From Aptenodytes patagonicus (Eukaryota > Chordata > Aves > Sphenisciformes > Spheniscidae): DNA of 64,000 bases. The notes beneath the pieces are model-generated. The model had not been told where the DNA came from, did not search any database, and saw nothing but the letters and a program-made list of their open reading frames with translations. The DNA is taken from the NCBI RefSeq assembly GCF_965638725.1, contig NC_134974.1, positions 1,944,143-2,008,142 of the forward strand. The letters are read 5' to 3'. The stretch's first letter is position 1. Each line of letters opens with the position of its first letter. The position numbers were made by a program, and so were the translations under genes. Of the stretch, positions 7,101 through 28,700 are shown piece after piece.

Positions 7101-10100
7101 AGAGCCACAGCTCACCGGGACCTCCACGGGATGGAGCCGACGCTCGGGGCGCACTCAGGCTTGGCCAGCCAGCCCCGTCCTCACCGGGGGCCCCCGGGCT
7201 CAAGAGCCGGAGCACGCAGGGGCTCGGCCGCCCGGTGATTCACCTCGGGCAGGATCCCTCTTTCCCACTGCCACAGCAGGCAGATGCCGCCCCGCGTGCC
7301 GGAGCTGGCTTTTTTGGGCACGATGAAATCGTTCCTCCTTAAAAATCCCCCCCCCCCGTGGGACGGTTGCAGGCAGCACCCGAAATCAGAGAGGTGGGAA
7401 GACCTCCCAGCCCCACTCCCAGCATCTCAGCGTTCCCCTCTGCCCCCCCCCGACCCCCAGGTCCGGTTTGTCCCCCGCAGACTGGTAAGGGAAGCCGTGT
7501 AAATCCTCCCGGGAGGGCTGCCGGGTGCGAGGGACTCTCCCGCCCTGGGCTCCGGCCAGCCTGCCCGTTTCCAAACCTCCGGGTGCTCTTTAACACAGAG
7601 CAAGCCCCGGGGCTCCAGCGACCCCGCAGACACGGGGAGGCAGCGGGCTGGAAACCAGCACCTGGGAAACAAGTGCCGGGAGCCAAGAAAACGGGGGGCG
7701 GGGGGGGGGGGTGTCTTTACCTCCTCCAGCTGGGCTCGGGCGGAGGCGACAGGTAGGTCGGTCCGTAGGGAGAGCTGTCGATGTGAGAGGCATGTTAAGG
7801 GCCAAACGGAGAGCGAGGGGCTGAGCGGCCGGCGTGCAGGCACCTAACGCAACCCCGCAGACAGGCCAGGGCAGCACGCGGTGCTAATGCTCGCTAATCC
7901 CAAAGAGACGAGCACCGGGGGCACTGGGATCAGGGCAGGAGCCCCAGCGGCAGGAGAAAAGGCTGCCCGCCCCCGCCGGTGGGGCAGGAGGGAACGGGAA
8001 TAAAGGATATCTGTCGGACGTATCGGCGAAGGGGGGACATCATCCGGCGCGGGTCGCGCTGCACACGCTCCACCAGGCCGTGGTGCCGGGTGCTGCGCGT
8101 GGAGTCCAGCGGCGAGTGCAAAGGGCCCTGCGGGGAGGAGACACACCGGGGTGAGCCCACCGCCCGTCTGCGAGGGAAGGGGTCTCGGGATCAGCCCTCC
8201 TCAACTGCCCCCACGGCTGGCAGCACTGCCGGGGGGGACGGAGCTGGGGCCAGGCAAGGCGATTAGAGGAGAACATCCCCTTGTCCCCATCTGTCCCCAA
8301 CAGCAGCCCGCGCCGCGGCTCTTCGTCGTCCTCCTCCCCGACGCCCACCCTGAGTCCTGACCCCCCTCCCCAAGGCACTGAGGGCGGCAGCCGCTGTGCC
8401 ACGGGGGGGGGACAGCCCCCCCAGAACCACCCCCCCTGCCCCCCAAGGCAGTCCCCGGCCGGCGGAGCGGGCGCTGCTCACCTGAAAGTCGGAGACGCCG
8501 CTGCCGATCTGGTTGACGTTGGGCAGGGAGCCGCTGTAGTAGGGTCCCCGGCTGTGCGCCAGCCTCAGCTTCTGTGCCTGCAGCTGGGAAGGGGTGGGGA
8601 GGGGGGGGGGAGGCAGGTCAGGGGGGGGGCCAGCAGGCACCCCGGGGGTGCTTGGGGCTCCTCCGAACTGCCTCGTTACACCCGAGACATCTCCGTCCCC
8701 GTGCCGGCGGGTCATCCCCATGCCCTCCCCTCCTGCAGCCGAGCCCCAAGCTTGTCCCACACCACGGTATCGAGCCCCCGGGTTGTCCCACGGGAGGAGG
8801 TGGCTCCCGAGCGAGGCATGTCCGAGCCGGTCGGCCTCAGGAACCGCGCAGGAACGGGCCAGGAAGGCTCGAGGTGCCCGGTACCTCTCCGCTTCAAAGC
8901 CACTGAGCACAGAGGAGGCCCCGCAAGGGACTTTCCTCCCTCCGTGGGTGCTGCGGTGCAGGAAGGATGCTGAGCCCCCGCTGGGTTTAGCGGCCGGGAA
9001 CGGGGAAAGCCACGTCTCTCCCACAGGCTGCGACACCCCCGTCCCCGGAGCAAAGGCTGAGCCCAGCCCTGCTCCCCCCTGAACAGCCGAAGCCCCCGTG
9101 CCCACCCGAGAGGGCTCTGGGCCCCCCGGGCACCGGCAGTCAGCGCACCAGCCCGTCCCCTTCGATCCGGAGGTGCTGGGTTTTCCAGCAAGCGCCTCGT
9201 CCACACCGAAGACAGTCCCGTGGCCGTCGGCAACGTCAGTGCCGCAGCCCAAAAACCGGGGAAGATCCTAGCCTGGAGTCGGGACTCCAGCAGGGCGAGC
9301 AGGAAGGGCTGCCTGCTCAGCACGGCATGGCAGCCCGCCGGCTCCCGGTGCCGCTCAAGGCCGAGGGAAGGAGTCACGGCAAACCGCAGACGGGAGATAA
9401 CCGGGTCTGGGCACCCGCCCCCCCCCCCCCCGGCGGAGGAAAACCCCACAGCAGAGGAGAGACGGGGTCCCGGGGCAGCACCAGCACTTGAGCCGGCCCC
9501 GAAAGCCCGCTCCTGCCCCGGTCCCGCAGGCAGGAGCCTGCCCGCAGCCGACCCGGGCAGGGGTTCGACCCGCCATGAGCAACGCAGGCTTCTTCATCCC
9601 GACGGCAGCGGGAAGGCGCTTTGCTGCCCGCATCCCGGGAAAGGGCACGGCCCCCCATCATCCCCTCCGGCACAAAGGGACGTCCCATTCCCCGGCTCCG
9701 GCATCCCACCGGGGAAGGAGAGTTTCCCCGATCTAAATCCACCGACCCAAGGCCAAGCGCACACGAATCCACTTTCCCTTCTGACTCGGCGGGCTCCCCG
9801 AGCAGCCCCACGCATCGGCCAGCGCCAGCGCTCGTCGGTCCTGGACAAACCCCGGGGAAAGAGGAGATGAAGCACAAAAAGCAGCTCGGAAACAGGCTGC
9901 AGCCGGGAAACCTGCGACAGCAAATTCCCAAGCTTAAGACCAGCGAAATCCAGATCCAGGGAAAAAAGAGAAAAACAACCAAAAAAACGGGAGATTTAGT
10001 CAACAGCTGGCTGCGCTGGCACTGCAGGATTAGTGCGAGGAGTTGCGCCGGGGCTTAAGGTCTTGGGATCCTGCTCTGTTCTCCGAGCCAGGGTCCCTGC

Positions 10101-12683
10101 GGGAGCCGGCAGAGCCAGACGAGGCCGAAATCAGGCAGCAGCTCACAAGCGGCCAGAAAAAACTCCAGGAAACACGAAGCAAAGCTCGAGGGGCCGCTAG
10201 ATCCCCGGGGAGGGAGCGGGGCACCCCAGAGCTGGGCAGCAGCCCCCCCCCGAGCCGTGCTGACGGGGGGCGGAAGCCTCTCCCCCAGGCGAGGAGCCAC
10301 GAAACGGAGGCGCCCGTGAGGGGCACCAAGCTGCCGGCGCGACGGCCGCTGCCAGCTCCTCGCCCGTGGGCAACGATGGAGGGGACCCACGGGGCCGGGA
10401 CCCCCCCCCTCGGGACCAGCTCCTGTCCCAGGTCACGCAGCTCTGCGCCTTTCCAGGGCTGCCGGTCCCACGTGTGGGGAACAAACTCCCGGAGGGAGCG
10501 TCCCGGGGCAGGGATTAGCGGGGAGGACAGTCCTGCTGCCTCTCCCCCCCAAGCTTTGCTGCACATTAACCAGCTGTTTACTGTGCAAACACGGTGCAGG
10601 AGGCTCCAGCCCACTCCCAAACTCACCGGCGATGCGCAGGTCGCGGCTCCTGCCTGCCATCCCAGCGAAAGAGGGGACAAAACCTCCAGAGAGATGTCCC
10701 CACTCGGGAGCCCGGCCCACCTGCTGGGGACGGGAGCCGCACGTCACTCCCTCGGGGTCAGGGGGGATCCTGTCCCCGTCACCTTCCCGGCGACAGCCTC
10801 GGCTCCGTGGATGTCGGGTCACCGCTGCCTCGCCAGACCCGGGGTGCCAGCGGGGCTCTCCGACCCAAACACCCCCTTTTTTTAAAGGTCTGATGGATTT
10901 TGCTCCCCTCTTCTCCCAGTCCCGCCGACCCCACGTGCAGGGTGACATACGAGCCTCCCCGTCAGCGGTCCCCGTCACCTGGAAGAGCCTCTCCTCTCCC
11001 CTCGCTCATCCATCCCCTATCTCCGACAGGAAGGACGACGCTGGCTGCCGGACCCCGCGGCTGCCGGCACAGCGATCCGCGGCACTGCAGAGCCCCATCG
11101 CCGGGGTTGGCACAACCCGCCTCTCCGGGAGCTGAAATCTGGCCAAACCCTGGTCTTGGCATACGGCCGCGCTATCCCTGCCGACTCCGCCGGGCCGGCG
11201 CAGAGCGAAACGCGAACCGGAGCCGACCGTCTCCTCTCGACGGCTTCCCCCGCCCGGGGAAACCAGGCTCCTGGAGACGCGCCGTGGCGTTCTCGGCCTC
11301 CCCGCTCCGCCGCCAGCCCCCGGCACCCCAGAGCAGCCCTCCTGCCACCGAGGGTCCCTCTGAGAAGCCCTCGGCCTGTGGGGGACGACGACTCGCCCAG
11401 AAGCCGCCGAGCGGGGCAGTTTTGCCGGCTCGGATCCGGCACGCTCACCCGCGCTCCCAACGCTGCGTTTTCTCAGGCTCCGGCCAAGCTAAATTTAAGC
11501 GTCTCCAGGGATGAAGCATCCGCCGCATCAGCTGGAAGGACCAACCCCACCCCCCTGAGGGTCCCTGGTGCTCAGGGACAGACACCCCCCCCCCTGCTCC
11601 GAGCCCCGGGGCCGGTGGAGGATGGCCCGGCAGAGGCGACGGCAGGGCCGCGACGCGGTGGGAGCCCGTCCCAGAGCCGTGGGCACGGGGATCGGCTCCT
11701 CGCCCCCCCGGCGAGAACCCCGGCGAGAACCCCAGCAAACTCTCAGGTGCCGCAGGTGGCGAGTCGCTTTTTCCACCCGGTCGCCGGGACACACACACGC
11801 GCGCACGCTCGGAAGCGGAGGAGGCGCACGGCGCGCGCCGGGACCCACGCACGGCGGCCACGGGCCGGAGCGAGCCACGTGCGAACCCTCGCCGGAAAAC
11901 CCGCAGCCGGAAAAAAAAAAAAAAAAAAATAAAATTTAAATAAATCAAAATAAACCCGGGGGAAGGAGAAGCAGGGTGCAGGTGGGTGCCCGGAGAAGGG
12001 GCGTTTCTCGGGGGGGGGGGGGCCTTCCCGGCCCCCCCTCACCCCCCAGTACCCCAAATGCCGACCCACCCCCAAGCCTCGGGGTGATGCCCCATCCAGT
12101 CCCACCTCCTCTGCACCCCCAAACCTCAACCCCCCCCCCCCGCCCCGGCCCCTCCGGGCACCCGCTTGAGCCCCCCCCACACACACACACACTCCCTCTG
12201 CGCCTCCTGACCCCCCCCCACCCCACCCTGTCTCCGGCCCCACGAGAACCCCCCCCCTCCTTCCGCACCCCCGAACGCCCCCCCCCCCCGAACCCCGAGC
12301 CCCCCGCACCCCCGCGGCCCCCCCATCCCTCTCACAGCCCCCGGCCCCCTCTAACCGCCCCCCCCCCCCCGAGGCCTCCACTCAGTCTCCGACCCCCTCA
12401 CAGCCCCCAGCCCCCCCAGCCCCCAGCCCCTCACACGGCTCCCGGGCCCGGCCCGGCCCCCCCCGGGCCCGTCGCGCATCCGGCGGGGGGAGGCCGCGGC
12501 GGCGCTGCTCACCCGGGTGGAGCAGATCTCCATCATCACCTCCTCGAAGGCCGCCGTCTCCTCCGCCTGCCGCTGCTTCTGCAGCGCGATCTTCTCGCTG
12601 AACTTCCGCGGGTTGGAAGCACCGGCACCGGCCGAGGAACCCGCACCGGGCCCGGGCCCGGCCCCCGCGCCCGCCGCCGCCAT
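445..12683 (-). CDS. CRTC2: CREB-regulated transcription coactivator 2
   Basis: Coactivator that binds the bZIP of CREB and moves between cytoplasm and nucleus under SIK/AMPK and calcineurin control. The 13 coding exons, in transcript order, are 12513-12683, 8482-8583, 8011-8127, 7721-7782, 4337-4440, 4041-4070, 3680-3744, 3449-3498, 3036-3280, 1962-2410, 1078-1377, 796-970 and 445-653. They total 2079 nt, giving 692 aa plus TGA; human CRTC2 is 693 aa. The N-terminal CREB-binding helix ([20 protein letters not shown]) is in exon 1. The 14-3-3/SIK motif RTNSDSALH crosses the exon 4/5 junction, with the regulatory Ser at about residue 154. A second phospho-site region, [10 protein letters not shown], spans exons 8-9, and the C-terminal activation domain ends [14 protein letters not shown]. 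Exons 3 and 4 are separated by an AT-AC intron. Oddities are an 11-Gln tract and an expanded Ser/Leu/Pro repeat. Start chosen because exon 1 has no other in-frame Met before the family's N-terminus. Confidence 0.95.
1111..1149 (-). repeat. CRTC2: Coding CAG repeat (polyglutamine) in CRTC2 exon 11
   Basis: Eleven uninterrupted CAG codons on the minus strand (CTG on plus, 1114-1146), flanked by CTG leucine codons. They encode 11 Gln between PNASL and LGQPLSDF. The human protein has no such tract at this point, so this is a local expansion in a Gln/Pro-rich linker before the activation domain. Confidence 0.9.
2123..2400 (-). repeat. CRTC2: Coding minisatellite in CRTC2 exon 10
   Basis: On the minus strand, roughly 27-bp units encode variants of the 9-mer SLQSSLSNP. 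At least four clear copies (2270-2400) are followed by degraded Ser/Leu/Pro copies to about 2123. The human protein has about two recognisable copies here, so the block looks expanded. The reading frame stays open throughout. Confidence 0.75.
4441..7720 (-). other. CRTC2: CRTC2 intron 4 (3.3 kb), no other gene seen
   Basis: A GC-rich intron between the exon ending at AGG-AG (7721) and the exon beginning with the rest of the RTNSDSALH motif (4440). I see no conserved coding segment on either strand and no recognisable retroposon. Long open frames exist but are low-complexity products of GC-rich sequence. Confidence 0.6.
7783..8010 (-). other. CRTC2: U12-type AT-AC intron of CRTC2 (intron 3)
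   Basis: A 228-bp intron. The 5' splice site reads ATATCCTTTA (8001-8010), the exact U12 donor consensus with an AT start. The branch-point element CCCTTAAC (7794-7801) lies 11 nt before the 3' end, and the intron ends in AC (7783-7784). Joining at these sites reads [13 protein letters not shown], which matches the family. No GT donor near the end of exon 3 gives the conserved protein. The whole 13-exon CDS is divisible by three only with these boundaries. Confidence 0.93.
8584..12512 (-). other. CRTC2: CRTC2 intron 1 (3.9 kb)
   Basis: First intron, between STR in exon 1 and LQAQKLRLA in exon 2. It holds an A-rich stretch at 11910-11945, short CA runs at 11790-11800 and 12180-12192, and a C-rich block at about 11990-12480. 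I see no conserved coding exon or recognisable transposon. Confidence 0.6.
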
Positions 12684-12740
12684 CTTCCCTGCTCGGGCCG
12701 CTCCGGCCGCCGCCGCCGCCGCCGCCGCTGCCGCGCGGGG
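12684..12740 (-). repeat. CRTC2: CCG trinucleotide run in CRTC2 5' UTR
   Basis: A (GCC)n run at about 12707-12731 immediately upstream of the CRTC2 start codon, read as GGC repeats in the 5' UTR. It lies inside the CpG-rich promoter segment. Confidence 0.7.
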
Positions 12741-12800
12741 CAGGCTGGGGCGGGGAGTCCGCGGGCCGGGCGCCGCCGCTGGGCCGCGGGGCGGCGGGGG

Positions 12801-12929
12801 ACTACAGCTCCCAGCAGACCCCGCGGCGCGCCCGCAGGGGCCGCCGGGAAACGGAGTCCCCGGCCTCTCCCCCCCTCCCCGCGGTGCGCGGGGTGGGGAG
12901 GGCGGGCCCGACTACAACTCCCGGCGTGC
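12801..12929. promoter_or_regulatory. CRTC2: CRTC2 promoter with two ZNF143/SIX5-type sites
   Basis: Two copies of the Staf/ZNF143 ACTACA-box motif: ACTACAGCTCCCAGCA at 12801-12816 and ACTACAACTCCCGGCGTG at 12911-12928. They lie 118 and 228 bp upstream of the CRTC2 ATG in a CpG-rich segment. This motif class is typical of TATA-less housekeeping promoters. The transcription start is inferred to lie between 12700 and 12800. Confidence 0.7.
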
Positions 12930-13320
12930 ACCGCGCGGCCTCCGCCCTCCCCCCGGGGATGGGGCGGGGCTGGGGGCGGGGCGAGGGCGGTAACGGCGGG
13001 GGGGGGGGGGGGCCGGGCTGCGTGGGGCGGGGGGGGCACCACAACGGGGGGGCCCGGGAAGGGGGGGGGGGGGGGGTAACGCTGCATGGGGTTAGAGCTG
13101 GGAGGGGGTACAGCAGGCTCCCCCCCCCCTCCGGCTGGGAACAGAGCAGACCCCACCCACCCCCCAACACTGGGGGGGCCTGGACCCCCCCCAACCCATA
13201 TAGACCCGGCGGCGGGGGGGGGGGCACGACACTGTGGGTCCCCCCTGGGCGCTGTGACACCCCCCCCCAGTGTCACGCCCCCCCCCCCCCCCCCCCCATC
13301 CCAGGCAGAGGCAGCACCAT
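12930..13320. other. Intergenic CRTC2-SLC39A1 segment
   Basis: Roughly 400 bp of C/G homopolymer-rich DNA between the CRTC2 promoter and the SLC39A1 polyadenylation signal. It includes several G or C runs of 10-16 bases. No gene or known element is visible. Confidence 0.6.
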
Positions 13321-13331
13321 CAGGTCAGTCC

Positions 13332-13337
13332 TTTATT
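13332..13337 (-). terminator. SLC39A1: SLC39A1 polyadenylation signal AATAAA
   Basis: A canonical AATAAA on the minus strand, 433 nt after the SLC39A1 stop codon. It is the only canonical hexamer in that interval, so the 3' UTR is about 13310-13769. Confidence 0.75.
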
Positions 13338-13769
13338 CGCTTCATTCGACGCCTCCCCCCGTTCGGGGGGGGCCGGGGCTGCGCACCCCAGGGCGCCCAC
13401 CCACGCTGTAAGGGCACTTGTGGGTGTTGGGGGGGGGGGTGGGAGGGGGCAGACGATGATGACACACTCCCCCCCCCGCCCCCCCCGCTGGGGGTCCCGC
13501 GGGGGGGGGGGGCCAGCACCGTTCCCCCTGTGCAGACAGGGAAACTGAGGCACGGGGAGTGCCCGGGAGGGGGGCCCCCGCCGGCAGACCCCCCCCACCC
13601 TGAGGTGCGGGGGGGGGGGGGGGGGGGGCTGAGACAGCCCCCGGAGCAGCACTTTGGCACTTGCATGGAGGAGGGGGTGCAGAGGGGAACCCCCTTGCCC
13701 GGGGTCCTGCGGCGGGGGGGGGGGCGCAGGGAATCCCCCCCCCCCCCGGGGAAGGGGGAGGGGGGTGCC

Positions 13770-16397
13770 TCAGATCTTGATGAAGAGGATGGCGGTGACG
13801 AGGGCGAAGCCGGCGAGGAGCAGGATGACCTTGGGGACGCGATGCTGGGGGACCCCCAGCTCCTGAGGCAGGATCTCCAGGAAGGTGATGTAGAGGAAGG
13901 TCCCAGTCGCCAACCCCTCCAGCACCCCCCGGCACAGCCGCTGCCTCGGCTTCGCGCCCGCCGCCGCCACCGCCGTCCCCAACCCCACGCCCAAGGGTGA
14001 CATCATGGCGAAGAGCGTCAAGCAGGCGACTACCGCCGGCGGGCGCAGGCGACCCCGCAGCAGCTTCAGCGCCAGGCTGAAGGCCACCGCGCATTTGTGC
14101 AGCAGCAGGGCCAGGCAGACGCGCAGCACGGCCCCCTCCGCCTCCTGCAGCCCCAGCGCCAGCCCCTCCAGCACGGCGTGCAGCGCCAGCGCCAGCACCA
14201 ACAACCCGGCGCGAACGGCGCCCCGGGCGCCGGGAGCTGGGGGCTGCGGCGAAGGGGTTTGGATGGAGCCGGTGGGAAGCAGAGACCGCGTCTCCTCCGG
14301 GACGGACGACGGCTCCCGCTGCGCCAACGCGACCTGCTCCAGCACCAGCACCAGGAAGAAGCCCATGGCCAGGATGAACTCCGGCAGGGGGAACTGCAGC
14401 TGTGAGGGGAGGGGGGGGGGAAAAGGGGGCTCAGGGCCTGCCTGCGCCCGGCCCTGCCTGCGCCCGGCCCTGCCTGCGCCGCCGGCCCTGGGGGAAGGAA
14501 GCCGGAGGCGGTGGCTGCCGGGAAGCCACCGGGAGGGAGGATCTTTCCATGAGTCACGGCGGGACACGAGGGCCTCCCGGCTGGCCCGGCCCCTCCCGGC
14601 TGCTCCGCCGCCACCAGCCCGGCCCTGCCAGCTCCCTCCCCGCTGTCCCCGTCCCCGCTGTCCCCGTCCCCGCTGTCCCCCGTCCCCGCCGTCCCCGTCC
14701 CCGCCGTCCCCCCTCCCCGCTGTCCCATTCCTTCCATCTCCTCCCCCACTGTCCCCATCCCCACCATCCCATCCCCACCATCCCGTTCCTTCCATCCGCT
14801 CCCCCACTGTCCCCTTCCCCACCGTCCCATCCCCACCATCTTGTCCCAACTGTCCCCCTCCCCACTGTCCCCATCCCCACTGTCCCCGTCCCTGCTGCCC
14901 CCCACACACACTGTCCCATCCCCACTGTCCCCATCCCCACCGTCCCCTTCCCCGCTGTCTTGTCCCAACTGTCCCCCTCCCCACTGTCCCGTCCCCACCG
15001 TCTTGTCCCCACTGCCCCCTCCCCACCATCCCATCCTCTCATCCCCCTCCCTTCCATCCCATCTCCGCCGTCCCCCTCCCCGCTGTGCCCCCCTGGCCGT
15101 CCCCTCCCGGCTGTCCCAGCACAGCTGACACCCCCACCCCACACCCAGCCGGAGCTGCTGACCCTGATCCCCATCCCGGGGACAAGGACACCGGGAAACC
15201 CCCAGGGCAGAGCCGGGATCCCCCCAGGCAGGGTCCCCGGCGGGTGGTAGGACCCCAAGGCAGGGGGGGGGGTGCTGGGGGCTCACCGTGACGTGCAGCC
15301 CCTCCAGCGCCGCGCCGATGCTGGCCAGGTAGTCGGGCAGGAGGTCGAGCAGGCAGGTGGCCAGGAAGACGCCGCCGGCGAAGCAGCTCACCAGGCTGAG
15401 CACCGGGCTGCGGGCGTCTGGGGTGGGGGGGGGTGGGGCATGAGACCCCCGCTGAGACCCCCACCACAGCCCTGCACCCTGGGAACCGCCGGACCCTTCA
15501 GGGTCAGCCCTGTCCCAGGTGACAGGCCTGTCCCCAGCCCGTCACGGACCCCCAGGGCCCCCCAGATCCCTGAGACCCCCGGCCCCCCCCCAGACTCCCT
15601 AGGAACCCCCAGACACCCCAAGGCCCCCTGGACCCCCTCAGACTCCCCGAGACCCCACAGACCCCTGAGACCCCCAAACTTCCTGGGACACCCCCAGGCC
15701 TCCCTGGACCCACACAGACTCCCCAGGACCCCCCGAGCCCCCCGGGATCCCCCAGACCCCTCGGACCCTCCCAGGCCCTCCGGGACCCCCCAAACCCCCG
15801 GGACCCCCCAGACCCTCCCAAGCCCTCCAGGACCCCCCGAACCCCTGGGACCCCCCCGAACCCCCTGGGATCCCCCAGACCCCCGAACCCCTCTGGGACT
15901 TCCCGAACCCCCGGGACCCCCCGAGCCCCTTGGGATCCCTCAGACCCCTCAGACCCTCCCAGACCCCTGAGACCCCCAGACTCCCCGGGACCCCCCGGGA
16001 CCCCCCGGGATCCCCCGAGCCCCTCGGGATCCCTCAGACCCCTCGGACCCTCCCAGGCCCTCCAGGACCCCCCGAACCCCCCGGGATCCCCCGAGCCCCT
16101 CGGGATCCCTCAGACGCCTCGGACCCTCCCAGACCCCTGAGACCCCCAGACTCCCCGGGACCCCCCGGACCTCCCGGACCCCCCCGGGCCCGGGCCGCCC
16201 GTACCGGCGGAGCTCGGGGGCTGCCGAAAGCAGCAGAGCGGGGCGAGGCCGCAGGCGAGGGGCAGCAGCAGCAGCAGCACCAGCGAGCCCAGCTTCGCCT
16301 CCAGGCCGGGCGGGGGGCGCGGCGCCGTCCCGGGGCTCCAGGCCAGCTCCTCCGGTCCGGCCCCGGCCCCGGCCCCGGCCCCGGTTCCCGCCGCCAT
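13770..16397 (-). CDS. SLC39A1: Zinc transporter ZIP1
   Basis: Plasma-membrane ZIP-family zinc importer. Coding exons are 16205-16397, 15287-15417 and 13770-14399, totalling 954 nt (317 aa plus TGA); human ZIP1 is 324 aa. After an Ala/Gly-rich N-terminus and a hydrophobic first segment come LSLVSCFAGGVFLATCLLDL (TM2), EFILAMGFFLVLVLEQ (TM3), a cytoplasmic loop, then TM4 with HAVLEGLALGLQ and TM5 with LLLHKCAVAFSLAL. The HxxxEG and HK positions form the family's metal site. The C-terminus is TFLYITFLEILPQE through the last TM, LLLAGFALVTAILFIKI. The TM3-TM4 loop has no histidines. The start is the only in-frame Met before the hydrophobic segment. The gene directly precedes CRTC2 in the same orientation, as in human. 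Confidence 0.95.
14640..15120. repeat. Minisatellite in SLC39A1 intron 2
   Basis: A pyrimidine-rich tandem array on the plus strand built from short CCCCACTGTCCCCATC- and CCCCGCTGTCCCCGTC-like units (about 13-18 bp). It fills about 480 bp of the intron between the second and third coding exons. Units drift gradually along the array. Confidence 0.85.
15540..16180. repeat. Minisatellite in SLC39A1 intron 1
   Basis: About 640 bp of C-rich tandem units on the plus strand of the type GACCCCCCGAACCCCTGG and CAGACCCCTCGGACCCTC. The period is about 14-15 bp, with larger blocks repeated. It lies between the first and second coding exons. Confidence 0.85.
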
Positions 16398-17597: not shown

Positions 17598-17697
17598 NNN
17601 NNNNNNNNNNNNNNNNNNNNNNNNNNNNNNNNNNNNNNNNNNNNNNNNNNNNNNNNNNNNNNNNNNNNNNNNNNNNNNNNNNNNNNNNNNNNNNNNN
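17598..17697. other. Assembly gap (100 N)
   Basis: Exactly 100 ambiguous bases, a conventional placeholder for a gap of unknown length. The last TARS2 exon(s) and its polyadenylation site are absent from the sequence on both sides, so real sequence is missing here. Confidence 0.99.
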
Positions 17698-20600
17698 CGC
17701 CCCCCCCGCCAGCACGGCCTGTACCTGCCCCGTGGCGTCAGCGGAGAGGGGGGGGGGGAGCCCCACATGGAAGGATTGGGGGGGGGGTGTGTACGGGAGG
17801 ATGGGGGGGGGACAACACGGGGATGGGGGACACACACGTGGGGGACGCAGGAGGATGGGGGGACGCAGGGGAACAAGGAGGGATGGGGGGGACGGACACG
17901 GGGATGGGGGGGACACGGGGATGGGGGGGGGGACACACACGGGGACGTGGGGGGGGGACGGCACACTCACCTCCCGGGCGTAGTCCTCGACTTCGGGTGC
18001 CTGGGGGATGACCATCGCCTGCAGCGGGGACAGCCAGAACGGCCTGGCGGGGGAGGGGGTGTGACATCAGGGGGAGTGTCAAGGGTGGGGGGTGACCTGG
18101 GGGATTGGGGGGGGGGGGGGGGGGGAAGTCCCCAGGATGGGGGTGCCCCAAGGATGGGGGTACCCGGGGGATTGGGGGGGTGTCCCCAGGGACTAGGGGG
18201 GGGGGTGTCCCCCGGGGACTGGGGGGGGGGGGGGGTGTCATGGGACAGGGACATCCCTGGGGGTTACGGGGGTGCCCAGGGGATCGGGGGGGGTGTCCCA
18301 GGGATCGGGGGGTGCCCCTTTTACAGCCCCAAGGGGAGAGATTTTTTTTTGGGGGGGGAATCCCCGAAGGGTCCCGGTTTGCCCCTGGAGGGGGCAAACC
18401 GGGACCCTTCGGGGATCCCCCCCCCCCCCCATCTTCCTCACCATCGCCCGCCGCAGCTCTCGGCCAGCACGGCCACCATGCGCTCGACGGAGCCCAGCAC
18501 TGCCCGGTGGATCAGCCACCGGCCGCGTCGGTCCCCCCTGTCGCGCTGGGAGGGGGGGGGGGAAGCAACCAGGGCTCAGACGGGGGGTGCGGGGGGGACC
18601 CCCCCCCACACCCCCCCTTTTCCCCCCCCTCCGCCCATACCTGGCGTATTCCAGCCCGAATCTCTCCGGCATCTGGAAATCCAGCTGGACGGTGCCGCAT
18701 TGATGCTGTCGCCCCAGCGCGTCCCGGATCTGGATATCGATCTGTTGGGAATAACGGGGAGGAGGGGGCGGGGGTGCGTCCCCAAGGAGGCAAACCGGGA
18801 TCCTTCGGGGGGACACCCCCCCCCGCCCGATCCCCGAAATCTCTCACCTTGGGGCCGTAAAAGGCGCCGTCGCCCGGACTCAGCTCCCAGGGCTGCCCGA
18901 AGGTGCGGAGGCTCCGCTCCAGCTGCTGCGGGGCGGGGGGGGGGGGGGGGGGGGGGCAGAATTGGGGTGGGGTGTCGACGCAGGGGCCGGGACGCGGTGG
19001 AGAGGTGCGATGGAGGGGACGTGACGCAGGGGATGCGACGCAGCAGGGGACGCGACGCGGGGAACGCGACGCGGGGGCACGACGCAGGGGACGTGACACA
19101 GGGGTGCAACGCAGCGGCGCGATGCAGGGGCCGCGACGCAGGGGTGCAACGCAGGGGACATGACACGGGTGCAACGCAGGGGACGCGACGCAGGGGCAGG
19201 ACGTCTAGGCACGACGCGGGGGACGCGACGCAGGGGATGCGACACAGGGGACGCGACGCAGGGGTAGGATGTCTAGGCACGACGTGGGGGGACAACGCGG
19301 GGGACGTGACACAGGGGCGCGACGCAGGGACGCGACCCAGGGGTGTGACGCAGGGGCAGGATGTCCAGGCATGATGCAGGGGACAACGCGGGGGATGCGA
19401 CGCAGGGGTATGATGTCTAGGCACGACGCAGGGGACAACGTGGGGGACGCGACACAGGGGCGCGATGCAGGGGACACGACGCAGGGCCAGGACGTCTAGG
19501 CACGACGCAAGGGACAATGCAGGGGACGTGACGCGGGGACACGACGCAGGGGACGCGACGCAGGCAGGACGTACAGGTGTGATACAGGGACACGGTGCAC
19601 GGATACGGCACACGGACGTGACAGCACAGCCGGGAGGCGACACATGGGACAAGCCACATGGGACGCAGCGCAAGGGACGCAACGGCACAGCTGGGAGGTG
19701 ACACGCAGGGGACATGGCGGGGGACGCCACAGCAGAGCTGGGAGGCGATGCACGGGGCGTGGGAGCAAAGCAGGGACACGCTGGAGAGGACCCGGCGCAG
19801 GGGACACGCTGCACGGGACGCCGGGGCACAGCCAGGACGCGACGCCCAGGACTCGGGGACGCAGCGGGGAGGGGACCCGGCGTGGGGGACGCGGCAGCGA
19901 AGTCGGGACGTGACGCGACGCCCAGGGCACGTTGCAGGGACATCGCGGCCAGGCCGGGACACGGCGCAGGGGACACAGGGACAAAGCTGCGACACGGCGC
20001 GGGGGACACGAGGAGGGGGGACACCGCGGGGGACAGGCCGGCAAAGCAGGAGGTGCCGCGTGGGGCACGCCGCAGGGGACACGGGCGGCAAAGCCGGGAC
20101 GCCGATGCCGGGGGCAGCGTCCGCGGCGGGGTCACGTTCCGTCCCCGTCCCACCTGCTCGGCGCGGTCCCAGGTCTGGGGGTCCCCCAGGAATCCGGGGG
20201 GGCGGGGTGGCCAGGGCCAGGCGGAAGGAGAAGCCCAGCACGGCGTAAACCGTCCGCACGAAGTCCAGGCAGGCGTCGATCTCGCCCTCCAGCTGGGGAC
20301 AGGAGGCGTCAGCGGGGTGGGGGGGACGGACACACACGCGCCGGGGGGACGGAGGGACAGACGGATGGACAGACGGGACGCTCACCTGCTCAAGGGTGCA
20401 GAAGATGTGAGCGTCATCCTGCTGGAAACGCCGTACCCGGGTCAGCCCCGTCAAGGTACCGGGGGCTCGTTGCGGTGCAGGACCCCGAAATCGGCCAGGC
20501 GCAAGGGCAGCTCCCGCCACGACCGCGGCCGGTGGGCGAACATCAGGCTGCGGACGGACAGACGGGACGGTCGGCCGCATCATCAGCGTGTTTCCCCCTG

Positions 20601-22592
20601 CCCCCCCCCAGCCCCGCGTCTTCCCCCCCACTCACCAGTGGGCCGGGCAGTTCATGGGTTTGAGGGAGAGGGTCTCGGTGCCGGCGGCGAAGGAGAACAT
20701 GTGGGTGCTGTAGTGCTGCCAGTGCCCCGAGAGCTCCCAGAGCCGGGGGCTGAACAAGTTGGGGGTCACCACCTCGCAAAAGCCCCTCGCCCGGTACTCG
20801 CTCTGCGGGGATGGGGGGACGGGGACGTCAACCCAGCCCCACGGCACCCGTCTCGGGGCTGGGGGGGTGGGGGGGAGGGCGCTGTGGGTGCTCCAGGGCC
20901 GGGGAGCCGCAAGGACGGAGGCACGGCAGGGCCTTGGGGCGCGACGGGGACGGGGTCCGGGTGCAGCCCCCCCCCCCCCAATTTCTCCCCCAGGCGGAGG
21001 TGACGGTGACGCCCCCGGGGACGGGAGGTGTCTGGGTGGGGGCGGGGGGGGCCGTACCCTGATAAAATCGACGAGGGCGTTGTAGACGTGGGCGCCGCGG
21101 GGCAAGAAGAAGCAGCTGCCGGGGCTGAGCTTGTGGAAGAAGAAAAGCTCCTGCTCCTGTGGTGGCGGGGGGGGGGGGGGGCGTTACTGGGGGGGGTCGC
21201 CGGCGGCCGCCGGCGAACCCCCCAGTAATGCCCCCCCACCCCCCCCCGCCCCCCCAAAAAGCGTGGGGCTTACCCGACCGACGCGGCGGTGATCCCTCAG
21301 AGCGGCCTCATCCTGCGCCTGCTGCCAGTCGGCTAAATCCTGGGCGCTGGGGAAGGCGACGGCGGCGAGACGCTGCAGCGACTGGCGGCCCCCGGCCCCT
21401 CGCCAAAAAGCGGCCGAGCTCTGGGGTTGGGGGGGGGGGGGGGTGGGGTGTGGGGGGAAATCAGCGGGGCCCGGACGTCGGGGTCCCTCGTCCGTCCCCG
21501 TCCCACACGGCAACCTACCGTCAGACGCGGAGGGCTGCGATCAGCCCCGTGTGCCGGAGGAGGGGGCCGCGGCAGAGCTGGAGCAGGGGGCCGCACCTGA
21601 GGGGAGGGAAGGACGTGGGGACCCCGGAGGGACGTGGGGACCCCGCAGCCCCGTCTCTGCGCTCAGCTGTGCCCCCTCCCCGCTGCCGTCATGTGGCCCC
21701 CCCCCCCCCCCCGTGCTCACCTATAGACGGTGGCCGTAGGGGACGTCACCTCCTCCTCGAGCTGCTGCAGCTGGAAGCTGTTGTGCTGCGGGAGGGGGGA
21801 GGAGGACCCGAGGTGGGTGACAGTGGCACGGGTGACACCGAGGAGGGGGACACCGAGGGGGGGGTGACACCGTGCTGGGGGGGGGAGGACCAAGCAGGTG
21901 ACAGTGGCATGCGTGACACCAGCATGCGTGACACTGAGGAGGGGGACACCGAGGGGGGGGGGTGTGACACCACGCTAGGGGGCGTGACACCATGCTGGGA
22001 GGGGAAGGACCGAGGCGGGTGACAGTGGCACGGGTGACACCGAGAGGGGGTGACACCGAGGGGGAGTGACACTGGTCCCCGTTAGCATCACCCTGGTCCA
22101 TGACCCCAACCAGGAGGGTCCCGATGTCCCCAGGCCGGGCTCCCTTGCCCCACCCTGGGATGGGGAGGGGACACGCCGGGGAGGGGACACGCCGGGGGTG
22201 GGGGAGTCTCACCTCGAAGAGCTCGGCCAGCTGCTGGCGGGTGGCCTCGAGGCGCTCGAAGCGGTGCCCGGCGCGGGCGAAAGCAGCGCAAGCTTCCTCC
22301 AGCGCCGGCAGCTCGTCGCGCTGCACCGTCCTGCGGGCGCGGGGAGGGGCTGGGGACACCGCGCCCCATGGGGGACCCCCGTGTCGTCCCCGTCCCCGTC
22401 CCCCCCTGCCCCCCCTTACCTGTCCCCCATGTGGGACATCGCAGAAGAAGCCGTCCTCGGTGGCCTGGGCGCTGCAGAGCGTGGCCCCGTAGAACTGCTC
22501 CGCCACCGCCCCCAGGACGCAGGCGCCGGACCGCCAGAAAGCCTGGGGGGGGGGGACACACACATGAATGACACGGAGAGGGGGACACGGAG

Positions 22593-22629
<37 letters not shown>

Positions 22630-23782
22630 CGGGGACAGGCTGTGAGGGGAGCGGGGCGCGGGTCCGGCCCCCGGTTCCGGCGGGACTCACCTCCCGTCCC
22701 TCCGGCGTCGAGAAGTCGAGGAGCTCCAGGTCGGCGTCGCTCTCCAGGGGGCCGGTCGAGGTCCTGGAGGGTCCCGTTCACCCGGGCCACCAGCGCCGCC
22801 TCCGCCAGGCCCCCCCTGCGGGGACACCCCGGGGGGACACACACACCGTGGGGACACTGTGGGAACCCCGTGGGACCCCGTGGGGACCATAGGGCAAGTG
22901 TGGGGACGCCATGGGGACCCTATGGGGACACCGTGGGGACCCTGGGGACGCCACGGGGACCATAGGGCCAGTGTGGGGACACCGTGGGGACACTGCGGGG
23001 ACCCTGGGGGGACAGCAGGGACTATAGGGTCAGTGTGGGGATCCCGGGGACCTCGCAGGGACCATAGGGCCAGTGTGGGGATGCCATGGGGACCCTATGG
23101 GGACGCTGTGGGGACCCTGGGGGGGACAGCGGGGACTATAGGGTGTGGGGACCCTGCGGGGACACCGTGGGGACGCCATGGGGACCCTATGGGGACGCTG
23201 TGGGGACCCTGGGGACCCCGTGGGGACCCTGGGGGGACAGCAGGGACACCGTGGGGACCCCGCGGGGACCACAGGCCAGCGTGGGGATGCCATGGGGGAC
23301 CCTGGGGGACCCCGCGGGGACCTCGGCCGGGGAGGGGGCCCGCACGTACCCCAGCTGCGCGGCCACCTGGAAGGGGGTGGTCTGCTGGGCCCGGCCGGGC
23401 AGGAGGCCGCCCCCGGGCAGGGCGATGCGGATGGGGGTCCCCGGGGGGGGCGGCCGGTGCCGGCCCCGGTCCCGGTTCCATCCCGCCGCTCCCGCAGCTG
23501 CTGGAAGAGCCGGAGGCGCTCGGAGAGGCGGGGGTCCGGGCCGGAGACCTGGGGACGGGGCAGGGGTCACCGCGGGGTCACCGCGGGGTCACCGCGGGGT
23601 CGGGACGCCCGGGTCCCCTTGGGAGCGCGAGGGTGCCGGCGGGTAGAGGCGGGCAGGGGGGAGGGGGGGGACCCGGGGGGGGGTGCGGGGGGGTGGGGGT
23701 GGGGGTTGGGCGGTCCCGAGCGCACCCGGTGTCGGCGCGGGGCCCCCGCGAAGAGCAGCCGCCCCCGGCGCGCGGACGGCAT
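17698..23782 (-). CDS. TARS2: Mitochondrial threonyl-tRNA synthetase (3' end lost in gap)
   Basis: Charges mitochondrial tRNA-Thr. Exons are 23726-23782, 23350-23548, 22691-22815, 22420-22542, 22213-22330, 21721-21785, 21519-21596, 21274-21420, 21058-21156, 20636-20802, 20386-20547, 20154-20292, 18848-18925, 18641-18741, 18442-18537, 17971-18043, and a partial exon 17698-17724. About 618 codons are present; roughly 85 C-terminal residues of the anticodon-binding domain are missing. An N-terminal TGS-like domain (IRIALPGG) is followed by the editing domain, then the class II core: [50 protein letters not shown] and [12 protein letters not shown]. The catalytic zinc ligands Cys, His, His are present. 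The editing HxxxH reads RSGAC. Phase fails in exons 2, 3, 4, 7, 11 and 12, mostly at C/G homopolymers, which suggests sequence errors over decay. The start is the first Met of exon 1. Confidence 0.85.
17735..17965. repeat. G-rich tandem repeat in TARS2 intron 16
   Basis: Plus-strand units of the form GGGGATGGGGGGGACACG, repeated irregularly in the intron between the exons at 17971 and 17724. It is prone to G-quadruplex formation and adjoins the gap. Confidence 0.7.
18309..18416. repeat. Fold-back inverted copy of TARS2 exon 13-intron 13 junction
   Basis: A perfect hairpin, left arm 18360-18385 and right arm 18391-18416 (26 bp each), with a 5-nt loop TGGAG. The arms match intron 13 sequence at 18788-18812. 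The stretch just left of the hairpin (18315-18344, plus strand) matches the minus-strand end of exon 13 and its donor, with CCTTTTACAGCCCCAAGG against CCTTTTACGGCCCCAAGG. The block is therefore an inverted partial duplication of a junction 0.5 kb away, sitting in intron 15. Confidence 0.85.
18955..20130. repeat. 1.2-kb minisatellite in TARS2 intron 12
   Basis: Tandem units close to GGGGACGCGACGCAG (about 15 bp) on the plus strand. A variant containing GGACGTCTAGGCACGACG recurs at about 19194, 19260, 19352, 19404 and 19485, giving an irregular 50-90 bp higher-order pattern. Units become more diverged towards 20130. The array fills nearly the whole intron between exons 13 and 12. Confidence 0.9.
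21184..21228. repeat. 45-bp near-perfect palindrome in TARS2 intron 8
   Basis: The arms TTACTGGGGGG...CGCCGGCGG and its reverse complement meet without a spacer at 21206/21207; they differ by one extra G and one base. It lies between exons 9 and 8. Confidence 0.85.
21800..22075. repeat. Tandem repeat in TARS2 intron 5
   Basis: Irregular plus-strand units of the form GGTGACAGTGGCACGGGTGACACCGAGG with GGGGACACC blocks, between exons 6 and 5. Two larger copies of about 100 bp (around 21815-21910 and 22010-22070) share the same order of motifs. Confidence 0.7.
22596..22627. repeat. (AC)16 microsatellite in TARS2 intron 3
   Basis: Sixteen perfect AC units between TARS2 exons 4 and 3. Confidence 0.95.
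22825..23335. repeat. Minisatellite in TARS2 intron 2
   Basis: About 500 bp of plus-strand units such as TGGGGACACCGTGGGGACC and CATGGGGACCCTATGGGG. There is a 12-bp basic period and longer blocks of about 48-100 bp that recur (compare 22900-22975 with 23075-23150). It fills the intron between exons 3 and 2. Confidence 0.85.
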
Positions 23783-24429: not shown

Positions 24430-25722
24430 TTTTGTAATTTTTATGTAGATATTTAACCCTACACCTTTATCAAACATATATGATGGGTTTCTAGCAACTA
24501 AAAACAAAAACCAAAACAACAACAACAACAACAAAAAAAAACCAAAACAAAAAAAAAAAAACCCCAAAACCCAAAACCCCAAACGGGAAAAAAAAAAAAA
24601 AAAAAAAAAATCAAGTAAAATCCCAACTTCATATAAAAGCCGCCGGGGCGGCTGCGGGGCGGCCCTGGGCGGGGGGGGGGGGGGGGGGGGGCAGCGCCCC
24701 GAGCCCCCCGCGGGCTCCGTCTGCGCGTTTTGAACGATCCGAGAGATGGAATTAAAAAGTGATTATTATATACACACACGTAGAAAGTCAACAGTGTTCC
24801 CGGGGGGTGGGAGCGGGGGGAAACACACCCCTCCCCCCAAAAAAAAGAAAAAACCAAACAAACAAAAAAAAAACCCAAAAAACCCCAAAATAAACCAAAA
24901 ACCAACCAACGGACGACAGGTTTTTCCCGAGGCGGGGGGGTGGGGTGGGGGGGGACAGGCTGGGGGACCCCTCCGGGGCGCCGGGAGCCAAACAGTCCGG
25001 CCGGCGGGCGCAGAGCTCGTCGTAGGGTGGGTGGGTGGGTGATGTTTTTTTTTTTTTTTTTGCCTTTTTTTTCTTTTTTGGTGGTTTTCGCCAGCTGGAG
25101 GGGGAGCGGCGAGGGTGGCTGCAGAGGAAGGCACCGGGGGGGGGGGGGGGGGGATAATGGGGGGGGTGCGGGGGGGTGTCTCTGCCACCGCTTGGACCCT
25201 TCGCTCCTCCCTGCGGTGGCGATTTGGTAACGGGCTAAAAACACACCATCCCAACAGCACGCTTCATCTTGCCCTTTTGGGTTTTTTTTTTTTAGGGTTT
25301 GGTTTTTTTTTTTCCTCCTTTTTTTGTTTGTTTTTTTTTTTTTTTTGTTTGTTTGTTTGTTTGTTTCCTTCAACTCTTTAAACTACTCCTGGAAGTTTTT
25401 ATTTCAACAGCAACGCTGCTTTCTTTCCGTTAAAACTTTTTTTTTTCCTCTCCTTTTTTTTCTTTTTTTTTTTTTTTTCCTCTCCTAGTCTCGCACCAAC
25501 TGTGTGGGCTTGGGAAATAACCCCCCCTCCCCCCCAAAAAAAATTAAAAAAAAAAAAAATATATGCAGAACATTTAATTTAGGAGAAGGTTATGGGGCTC
25601 TCGAGGGAAAGAAAAGGACCAAAAGAAAAAAAAAAAAAAAGTATGGAAAAACCAAGTGAAAGCGCTACTCCGCTGCTCTCTACAGCGTCCGGATGCCTTC
25701 GCTCGGGAGCTGGGCGTCTGCT
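24430..25722 (-). other. RPRD2: RPRD2 3' UTR (probable extent)
   Basis: Between the RPRD2 stop and the next CpG-rich promoter the sequence turns abruptly A/T-rich, as expected for a long 3' UTR. A canonical AATAAA (25398-25403, minus) could end a short form about 325 nt after the stop. A variant GATAAA at 24466-24471 near the end of the A/T-rich block could end a long form. Poly-T/GTTT tracts (25040-25510, plus) and A/C-rich tracts (24500-24620 and 24835-24915) are present. Confidence 0.55.
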
Positions 25723-28700
25723 TCAGTACCTGGGGGGGAAGAAGGGGCGTTTCGGGGCGAAGAAGGGGGACCCCCTCCCGAAGGGCGGCCGGGGCCTTTT
25801 CAGGCTATGGAAGGGGTCTCTGCTTACGAAGGGCTCTCGCGGCCTGAATTCGGCCCGGGGGGTCCTGACCAGCACCCCGCCGCGGCTCCCGCCGTCCCTG
25901 TGAGCGGGGGGGCCCAGGCCGCGGGCCGCCCCCAGCTGCTCCCTGGAGAGGGGGGTCAGACCCACGGCCTCGCGGGTGCGGGACAGGGGGGCTGCGGCGT
26001 GGTCCCGCTGTTGGGGCTGGGCCACCGGCTCCCGGGGTCCGGCGTGCACGGCGAAATGCTCCTTCATCGTCCCTTGGTGGATGGTACCGTGCTCCTTGGG
26101 GAAGGCGCCGGCGCCGTGCTCCACCGCCATGGGGGGTGGCGCGGGGAAGGGGACGCCGCCGTGTTCCCCGGCCGGCGGCGGTTGGGCGGGGAAGGGGACG
26201 CCGGCGTGCTCCCCGGGGACGGGGGGCGGCGGGGGCGTGGGGAAGGGGACCCCGGCGTGCTCCACGGAGGGAGGCGGGGGGACGCCGTGGGGCAGCGAGA
26301 GCGGAGCGGAGGTTTCCTTCGAGAAGGGGTTGGCGTGATCCACCGACGGCATGCGGGGAGGGACCGAGTGATCCCTCGGGAACAGGCTGCCGTGGTCCTT
26401 GGGGGGGCGGCGGGGGGCCCGGCGGGCGGACCCACCGGGTCCCGCTGGAAGGGAGTCCCGTGCTCGATGGGAGGCGGCGCGAGGGGCGGCGGCGGCGGCA
26501 TGTGGTGCTCGAAAGCGGGGCTGAAGTTATTTGTTCGGAAGTTGTTGACGCTCTCCTGGAAGGGCGGCACGTGCTCCTTGTACGGCGCCGGGAAGCCGCC
26601 CATGCCGGGCAGCTCCGACGTGCCCGAGGGCCCGTTGTCGAAGGCGTTCCCGCCGCTGCTCATCTCGAACCACCCCGCCGCTCGGCTCGCCTCTCGCCCG
26701 TGTCCTCTGTTCCCCTTCCCCAGAACCCGGATGGACTCCACGGTCTGGATGGGCTCTCCCGACATCCCCCTGCTCGAGGCGTTGTGGTAACCCAGCGTTT
26801 CGATGGGGGCCCCTTTCTCCTCGGTGCTGTCGGGCAAGTCCAAGCAGGAGGAGGAGACCCTGGTCTCTATGCGGTAGTGCTCCTCCTGCGGCTGCGGCTC
26901 TCCCTTGGGAGCTCCGGCTGGGCCGTGGCCGGACAAGCTCACCCCCTCGCCGGAGCCACTTTTGGAAATCTGGCCAAAATGCTTCTCCTCGGAGGGCTTA
27001 CGGGAGGCGTTTTTGAGCATGTTCTTGAACTCGATGGTCGACGTGGCGGAAATGGAAGAACCCAACGATTTCTCCACGCTTGCCGCGGGCGCTCTGCCCG
27101 CCGGGCTGGAGAGGGCGTTTTGAGAAGAGAAAAGCGAGCGGTGGGGAATCGAGTGGGGCGAGTCCGGGTATTGCTTCTGCGAGAGGCCAGAGTGCACCAC
27201 CGATTTCGGTAAGTTGTTGTGATTGGAGTCCGGCGTGAAAAACACGTCGTTCTTGCCGGGCGAAGGGGAGCCGTCCGAGGTGGAGTCGTTTCCCCTGAGG
27301 CCGTAGCTCCCGTACATCCCTGGAGACGACGCCAGCGGGTCGCAGCTCTCGCTCTGATCGAGAATAGACCTCATCGACTGAGGGAAGGACGACTTCACGC
27401 CAAACTCCTGCGATCTTTGACCGTAGCTGGACAGGACCGGCTGGTACTCTGCAGCTTCAGAGAGTTTACTCGATTTCAAGATAGACTTGGCGGGCTTCTT
27501 CTCCAGGTTTAGCATGGCCGACGGCGGCGGCCCGGAGTAATCGAAGTCGCGGTAATCTTCGTCTTCTTGAAAAGAGGTGTCCGGGTAAAACTTCTCCTGG
27601 GAGGAGTCCATTAACGAGGAGGGTATCTCCATGCTGTCTGCAGACTGCTTGTACAGGCCGGCCGGAGACTCTCTGCCGAGGCCGAAGGGCCGGTAGGCGT
27701 GCACGGAATTGGAAAGTTCTTGGGGATATCCGTCGTCCCGGCTCTGAAGAGGTGACCTCGTGCTGCTGGGAGTAGAAGAACCGGGGCTCATGATTTTCGA
27801 CAGAAGGGAGATAGTGTCGACGTTGCTCGATGTCGGCTTATCCATCATCTCGTCCTGGGTGGGCGTCCCACTTCGCTCATCGCGCACCGGTGTTCCGTCC
27901 ACATTGTCCATGGAAGTGCTGGTAGGACCACGCTGGAAGTCAGACGCGTGACTTTCCGTTGCGATGCTGGACCCTAAGCTGCTGAGAATTGGAATATTCA
28001 AGTTCAGACCGCTGAAGCCGGGATTTCCCTTCAAGAAATTGTGTATCTTCATCTCCAGGCTCGGAGAAGGGGGCTCCGATTCCAGCTTCGCTTTTGAAAT
28101 TTCGGAGGATTGACCCAGTGAGGTTTCTGTTGGCAAAAGGGAAGAAGGACTGGTAGGGTGAGAACTGGAAAATCCCAGGGAATTGGCTGGCGGCTTAAAA
28201 CTGGAGCTTGACAGCCCTGGGGTATGTCCAACGGGAGCCTTATTAACTGAAGTTGAGGAAACCTCAGCAGTAGACGAGTTCGGAGAATAACCAAAGCTTT
28301 TGGATATAAAGGACTGAGTATTGGAAGGAACGTTCCTCCCCTTCACGCAAGGAACAGTGGTGTTGGCTGGCGAGGCCGAAGTGCTCTGCGACGCAGTTTC
28401 GCTTGACTGAACGGTATTTCCAGCAACACTCTGAAGTAAGGATGACAAACCTGGAAAAAAAGAACGCTGCGCTCAGATATTCAGGTAAGAGGCAAGTCAA
28501 CTCGAGCCGCTGCCAAGGGAAAGGTTTCGGCAGACGTCGTTCCTTAAAACGACTTCAGGTTTTAGCCAGGAAAATGACTGGATTTTGCTGCATTACTATT
28601 GTCGTTAGCACCCACCGAGGTGCAAGCTTTTGCCAGAGGCTCAGATCGATCCGTACATATAAATTACAACATACATCTGAATAAGCTGGGTAATAACTCA

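Follow-up and report, generated by a model that had tools for sequence, protein, structure and literature searches.

Does the mitochondrial threonyl-tRNA synthetase (mtThrRS) of a bird still possess the site with which Ser-tRNA-Thr is cleared, or has that site been given up while the site of synthesis was kept? The question is raised by a stretch of 64,000 nucleotides from Aptenodytes patagonicus (here called the window, G000:C26:1944143-2008142, on a contig of 3.2 Mb in an assembly of 1.35 Gb), in which an initial annotation made from the letters alone had read a TARS2 gene with most of its editing residues replaced. As read in this one assembly, with a local consensus that is flawed, the loss of the editing pocket in a vertebrate mtThrRS is real and selective. 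What the loss means for the enzyme, and whether the gene is alive, are matters of graded probability that are taken up below.

TARS2 lies on the minus strand between the last exon of RPRD2, which presumably adjoins TARS2 in human as well, and SLC39A1. Seventeen exons are seen, extending from an ATG at 23782 down to 17698, where a gap of 100 N interrupts the gene (Table 1). The order of domains is that of an Arg-rich leader, a TGS domain, an N2 editing domain and a class II core, and judging by its composition the leader, 19 residues long with no acidic residue, is likely a mitochondrial presequence. At the exon ends as chosen in the analysis, all 16 donors are GT and all 16 acceptors AG. The joined reading finds its best match in a PDB sequence search in the cytoplasmic ThrRS chain 4hwt (542 bits), which we take to be the human enzyme; the 41 residues of exon 4 used alone as a query gave no ThrRS match in the PDB, while longer queries did match ThrRS. 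In Pfam searches of the unspliced frames the class II core (PF00587) scored 38.4 bits, above the cut-off, and tRNA_SAD scored 14 bits (E = 0.05), below it. The remainder of the anticodon-binding domain probably falls within the gap, since a piece of TARS1 used as a probe for it matched only contigs C34, C33 and C10. Among the candidates scored in the assembly (at least 47 matches), this is the only locus of the TARS2 type and no second copy was found; it is separate from two other full ThrRS genes on C34 and C10.

Two features of the surroundings may be recorded here. Intron 12 contains a GC-rich minisatellite (19014-19564) with a period of 13, about 41 copies and 64% matches. On the far side of the gap, positions 7722-16397 hold SLC39A1 and then CRTC2, adjoining TARS2; in human these two genes are, we assume, located away from TARS2, so synteny seems to have been rearranged.

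Table 1. Features of the TARS2 locus in window positions, with pocket residues in E. coli numbering
Feature	Position	Strand	Content
Exon 1	23726..23782	-	ATG and Arg-rich 19-residue leader, no acidic residue
Exon 2	23350..23548	-	Putative TGS (N1) domain; one frame change, run of 8 C
Exon 3	22691..22815	-	N1 ends, N2 editing domain begins; frame change, run of 5 C
Exon 4	22420..22542	-	RSGAC for HxxxH; G95A/P96Q, Y104C; one frame change near end
H73R	22533-22531	-	Codon CGG
H77C	22521-22519	-	Codon TGC
G95-P96 to A-Q	22470-22465	-	
Y104C	22443-22441	-	
Exon 5	22213..22330	-	Editing domain, open
Exon 6	21721..21785	-	Editing domain; K156Q
K156Q	21773-21771	-	
Exon 7	21519..21596	-	QLCRGPL for DLCRGPH; frame change near end, outside base runs
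D180Q	21580-21578	-	
C182 kept	21574-21572	-	Codon TGC
H186L	21562-21560	-	Codon CTC
Exon 8	21274..21420	-	Linker to catalytic domain
Exon 9	21058..21156	-	Catalytic domain
Exon 10	20636..20802	-	Catalytic domain, MNCPAH with zinc ligand C334
Exon 11	20386..20547	-	Motif 2, DDAHIF with zinc ligand H385; frame change, run of 5 C
Exon 12	20154..20292	-	Catalytic domain; one frame change, C-rich stretch
Exon 13	18848..18925	-	Catalytic domain
Exon 14	18641..18741	-	Catalytic domain
Exon 15	18442..18545	-	LIHRAV with zinc ligand H511; 1-2 frame changes before LIH
Exon 16	17971..18043	-	End of core, start of anticodon-binding domain
Exon 17	17698..17724	-	Cut by assembly gap
Assembly gap	17598..17697		100 N; rest of anticodon-binding domain missing

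Within the editing domain, the place of the HxxxH motif is taken by RSGAC (22533-22519) and the second motif reads QLCRGPL; the DNA strings behind RSGAC and LCRGPL are each unique in the window. The initial annotation had put RSGAC at the same position, which belongs to the minus strand, and had named LCRGPL correctly while giving it too short a span: 21560-21574 covers CRGPL only, and the full motif runs from 21577 to 21560. Its reading that three of the four classical editing residues are replaced agrees with the codons, which give H73R, H77C and H186L with C182 kept. The published form of the second motif is DxCRGPH (PMC4787780, in excerpt), so that in TARS2 the Asp has gone along with the His and the Cys is still present. 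Replacements not previously annotated are found at G95, P96, Y104, K156 and D180, as are the frame changes and the gap at the locus, and the changes at columns 77 and 104 introduce new cysteines. Scanning all six frames of the window for the pattern revealed no other exon bearing HxxxH in the tested form. The synthetic site retains all of its zinc ligands (C334 in MNCPAH, H385 in DDAHIF and H511 in LIHRAV), as had been claimed.

How selective the loss has been can be judged from the conservation of the two domains. TARS2 shares with the TARS1 of the same genome 61 of 142 editing-domain residues and 203 of 283 catalytic-domain residues, while TARS1 and TARS3 are 82% alike in the first of these domains and 83% in the second. 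At sites where E. coli ThrRS, TARS1 and TARS3 agree, TARS2 is changed at 17 of 39 in the editing domain (E. coli columns 52-199) and 17 of 131 in the catalytic domain (columns 242-560; Fisher p = 1.3e-4), one of the catalytic changes, R423P, depending on where the break in exon 12 is placed, with an earlier break giving Arg. The linker between the domains, with 8 of 16 conserved sites changed, counts against a loss confined to editing.

A wider comparison was made with 83 ThrRS, namely 80 prokaryotic loci together with E. coli ThrRS and the bird's own TARS1 and TARS3, a set biased in that many of the 80, the best of 515 relatives, are close to E. coli. All 60 catalytic sites that are invariant in this set are kept in TARS2, and 3 of the 6 invariant editing sites are changed. 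At sites conserved in at least 98% of the set, 11 of 17 are changed in the editing domain versus 2 of 72 in the catalytic domain (Fisher p = 2.3e-8), with one of those two, P507R, being an artefact of a masked stretch in exon 15; at 95% or above, the counts are 12 of 20 versus 6 of 87 (p = 5.7e-7). None of the 83 has a replacement at H73, H77, D180, C182 or H186: columns 73 and 77 are His in all 82 rows with data (a partial row, L076, does not include them), and K156, D180, C182 and H186 are identical in 83 of 83. The 515 relatives were found with two peptide patterns taken from an alignment that included TARS2, and since one pattern spans columns 99-106, the conservation seen at 103 and 104 is due in part to how the sample was chosen; neither pattern includes H73, H77, K156, D180 or H186. 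Over columns 52-199 the editing domain of TARS2 aligns with TARS1 and TARS3 without a gap. Selective loss of the editing pocket beside an intact synthetic site is thus strongly supported, both by this contrast between domains and by the control that the same genome provides, and the suggestion from which the analysis began is upheld on this point.

That control consists of other editing enzymes read from the same assembly, their names being assigned tentatively and by exclusion. The genes on C34 and C10, which we take to be TARS1 and TARS3, each carry YWHSSAH and CGPLIDLCRGPH, that is, both HSSAH and DLCRGPH are kept. A gene on C3, presumably AARS2 (the mitochondrial AlaRS), keeps HTATH and, read up to the exon end, ELCCGT, so at least one other mitochondrial editing enzyme has not decayed at these motifs; a gene on C11 is assumed to be AARS1. 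Among the editing enzymes examined in the assembly, loss is seen in TARS2 only. A match of PF07973 on C20 was rejected as a ThrRS; it looks like, and is presumed to be, AARSD1.

Several partial copies of ThrRS genes also came to light. A W-like contig carries a decayed copy of TARS1 (C33:27393168-27401714, loci L038 and L039, with L141 upstream). The Z-W alignment, of 88-92% identity, begins at the catalytic half; DDAHIF has become DDTHIF in this copy and HRN has become HCN, and about 17 kb of upstream sequence yielded nothing that matches the editing half. On C2 there is an intronless, partial TARS1-like copy (L040, 118618607-118619191) of about 194 residues, free of internal stops and 61% identical to TARS2, which from its structure is likely a retrocopy. 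Viral contigs were also searched for stray avian copies; the three relatives that came up are distant (38-47% identity), and none is bird-like.

With 7-8 single-base frame changes in 1887 bp of coding sequence (exons 2, 3, 4, 7, 11, 12 and 15), TARS2 could be suspected of being a pseudogene, the frame changes being real and the mitochondria being served by TARS1 or TARS3. The coding sequence read from its neighbours has a single frame change in 4,151 bp, a count in which exon bounds are approximate: none in 978 bp of SLC39A1 (read by eye, exon-join phases unchecked), none in 433 bp of CRTC2 (four exons), and one in the 2740 bp of the last RPRD2 exon (25721-28460), in a C-rich stretch near 26400. 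The breaks lie at or near a run of C or G in six of the seven affected exons; the exception, in exon 7, is outside any base run and would suit a pseudogene, as would a 3' end that was not found with the TARS1 probe. Runs of at least five C or G number 23 in TARS2 versus 29 in the parts of SLC39A1, CRTC2 and RPRD2 combined, so that run content accounts for part of the excess of frame changes, not for all of it. A poor consensus is plausible at a gene that adjoins a gap and has GC-rich tandem repeats in its introns. The retention of 60 out of 60 invariant catalytic sites and of GT and AG at every chosen exon end speaks against a pseudogene, as does the fact that every break can be read as a single-base change: the stops all sit at or follow a frame change, none of them requires a substitution, and no broken splice site was seen. 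In a simulation of neutral decay, with 60 sites placed at random and substitution numbers assumed, the probability of keeping 60/60 sites with no stop was 0.17, 0.037, 0.005 and 0.001 at 20, 40, 60 and 80 substitutions, making such retention improbable at 40 or more, while the value at 20 would fit a very young pseudogene. Even then, the multi-base codon changes at the editing sites would make the loss of editing older than any pseudogenization. An old pseudogene was rejected on the contrast between the editing and catalytic domains together with the decay simulation, and a dead gene of any age is in our judgment improbable.

Error in sequencing or assembly deserves less credence still as the source of the replaced residues. 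Many single-base length errors or indels do occur near the gap, but these are length changes, whereas the residues at the pocket columns were replaced through codon changes that keep the frame, and the 60 invariant catalytic sites came through intact. Codons 73, 77 and 180 stand at least two bases from any His or Asp codon, so that base-call error is no fair explanation of them; with the invariant catalytic sites kept and the editing sites changed, neither base-call error nor uniform decay fits, and base-call error was rejected on that contrast between domains. A different proposal is that the pocket has been remodelled, with C77, C104 and C182 together with R73 forming an altered editing site, a metal site or a redox-sensitive pair of cysteines. 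C182 is kept, it lies by H73, H77 and H186 in the E. coli enzyme (PMC4041444, in excerpt), and two cysteines are new; on the other side, K156, D180, H73 and H186 have all been replaced, though uniform in the comparison sequences with data, and the ribosome subunit mL39 (see below) carries the same R and L states. Remodelling of this kind strikes us as very unlikely, and outright error as next to negligible. The account that we favor, and hold to be quite probable as a whole, is that the gene is the nuclear TARS2, that the catalytic and substrate-binding pocket of N2 was lost, and that the synthetic site meanwhile stayed under selection.

What such an enzyme would do can be gauged from published mutants. 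In E. coli ThrRS, where C182 is located beside H73, H77 and H186, editing kcat is lowered 7000-fold by H73A, 70-fold by H186A and more than 500-fold by C182A/S (PMC4041444, in excerpt). A laboratory mutant of human mtThrRS, H133A/H137A, is defective in editing (PMC7337905, in excerpt), and H151A/H155A in the cytoplasmic domain of the yeast enzyme abolishes deacylation of Ser-tRNA-Thr, leaving tRNA-dependent pre-transfer editing (PMC4267643, in excerpt). With both His of HxxxH, H186 and further pocket residues replaced in TARS2, no useful hydrolysis of Ser-tRNA-Thr would be expected, and clearing of this product after transfer has probably been lost; the retention of C182, which has been proposed as the activator of the 2'-OH, counts against this.

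Contact with the acceptor stem is a further role of the ThrRS editing domain, and charging loses efficiency when the domain is removed (PMC4267643, in excerpt), which is a likely reason for the domain having been retained in TARS2; by analogy it may still grip tRNA. Under the favored account, the enzyme would charge mt-tRNA-Thr normally, the editing domain would survive as a scaffold holding the acceptor stem, and serine errors would either be tolerated or be prevented in the synthetic site through hydrolysis of Ser-AMP before transfer, in the manner of yeast Mst1. The single-base frame changes would then be errors of the consensus, made where GC-rich sequence adjoins the assembly gap. More speculative, and on balance doubtful, is the extension to a bird lineage without post-transfer proofreading by ThrRS, in which Ser would appear at Thr positions or a new discrimination would have arisen in the synthetic site, and in which the retained domain, with Cys at 77, 104 and 182, would perhaps be a tRNA-gripping and possibly redox-sensitive module. 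Mitochondria here may make proteins without a check that has been thought important. If so, a vertebrate would offer a natural test of the mistranslation load that mitochondria can bear and would show how the synthetic site or the tRNA pool adapts once proofreading is dropped, and the tRNA-binding role of the editing domain would be separable from its hydrolytic role.

Among the matches listed from the open-access literature, none described a vertebrate mtThrRS that lacks the editing site, and none dealt with avian TARS2. A study of the evolution of mitochondrial aminoacyl-tRNA synthetases in birds deals with 14 mitochondrial genes, and mentions of ThrRS, threonine or editing are absent from its main text (PMC4693975).

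The nearest point of comparison is human mtThrRS, which misactivates Ser and edits Ser-tRNA-Thr (PMC6451123, in excerpt); H133, H137 and C240 are among its editing residues, and its active sites are described as well conserved across bacterial, cytoplasmic and mitochondrial ThrRS (PMC7337905, in excerpt). The gene described here is the same gene by domain order, but of these three residues only the Cys is still present, both His of the human HxxxH having been replaced. Similar losses of editing are known from human mtLeuRS and mtPheRS, human mtThrRS being without such a loss (PMC6451123, in excerpt); here it is ThrRS that is affected, and the N2 domain is retained while its pocket is gone. The mitochondrial ThrRS of yeast, Mst1, has no post-transfer editing and uses pre-transfer editing, but it lacks the whole editing domain (PMC4267643, in excerpt), whereas TARS2 here retains it. 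Degenerate N2 editing is described for Mycoplasma ThrRS (PMC7373986, in excerpt). In Anabaena T2, N2 editing is impaired through an insertion, with HxxxH and DxCRGPH kept and with T1 helping in trans (PMC4787780, in excerpt); in TARS2, by contrast, the motifs themselves are replaced, and there is no such insertion relative to TARS1 and TARS3.

A last parallel is found outside the synthetases, in mL39 (MRPL39), a ribosome subunit similar to the N1 and N2 domains of ThrRS and matched over the N-terminal domains only. It has no known editing role, and no paper treating it together with threonyl-tRNA synthetase was found in the open-access literature. Four PDB alignments place an R at its H73 column and an L at its H186 column, the same states as in TARS2, but unlike TARS2 it has Ser at the C182 column, Asp at D180 and Met at H77. 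The shared R and L possibly reflect a parallel decay of ThrRS-type editing domains toward favored states. TARS2 itself, alignable throughout its editing domain and yet changed at 11 of 17 highly conserved sites, presents such a domain in a degenerate but retained form.
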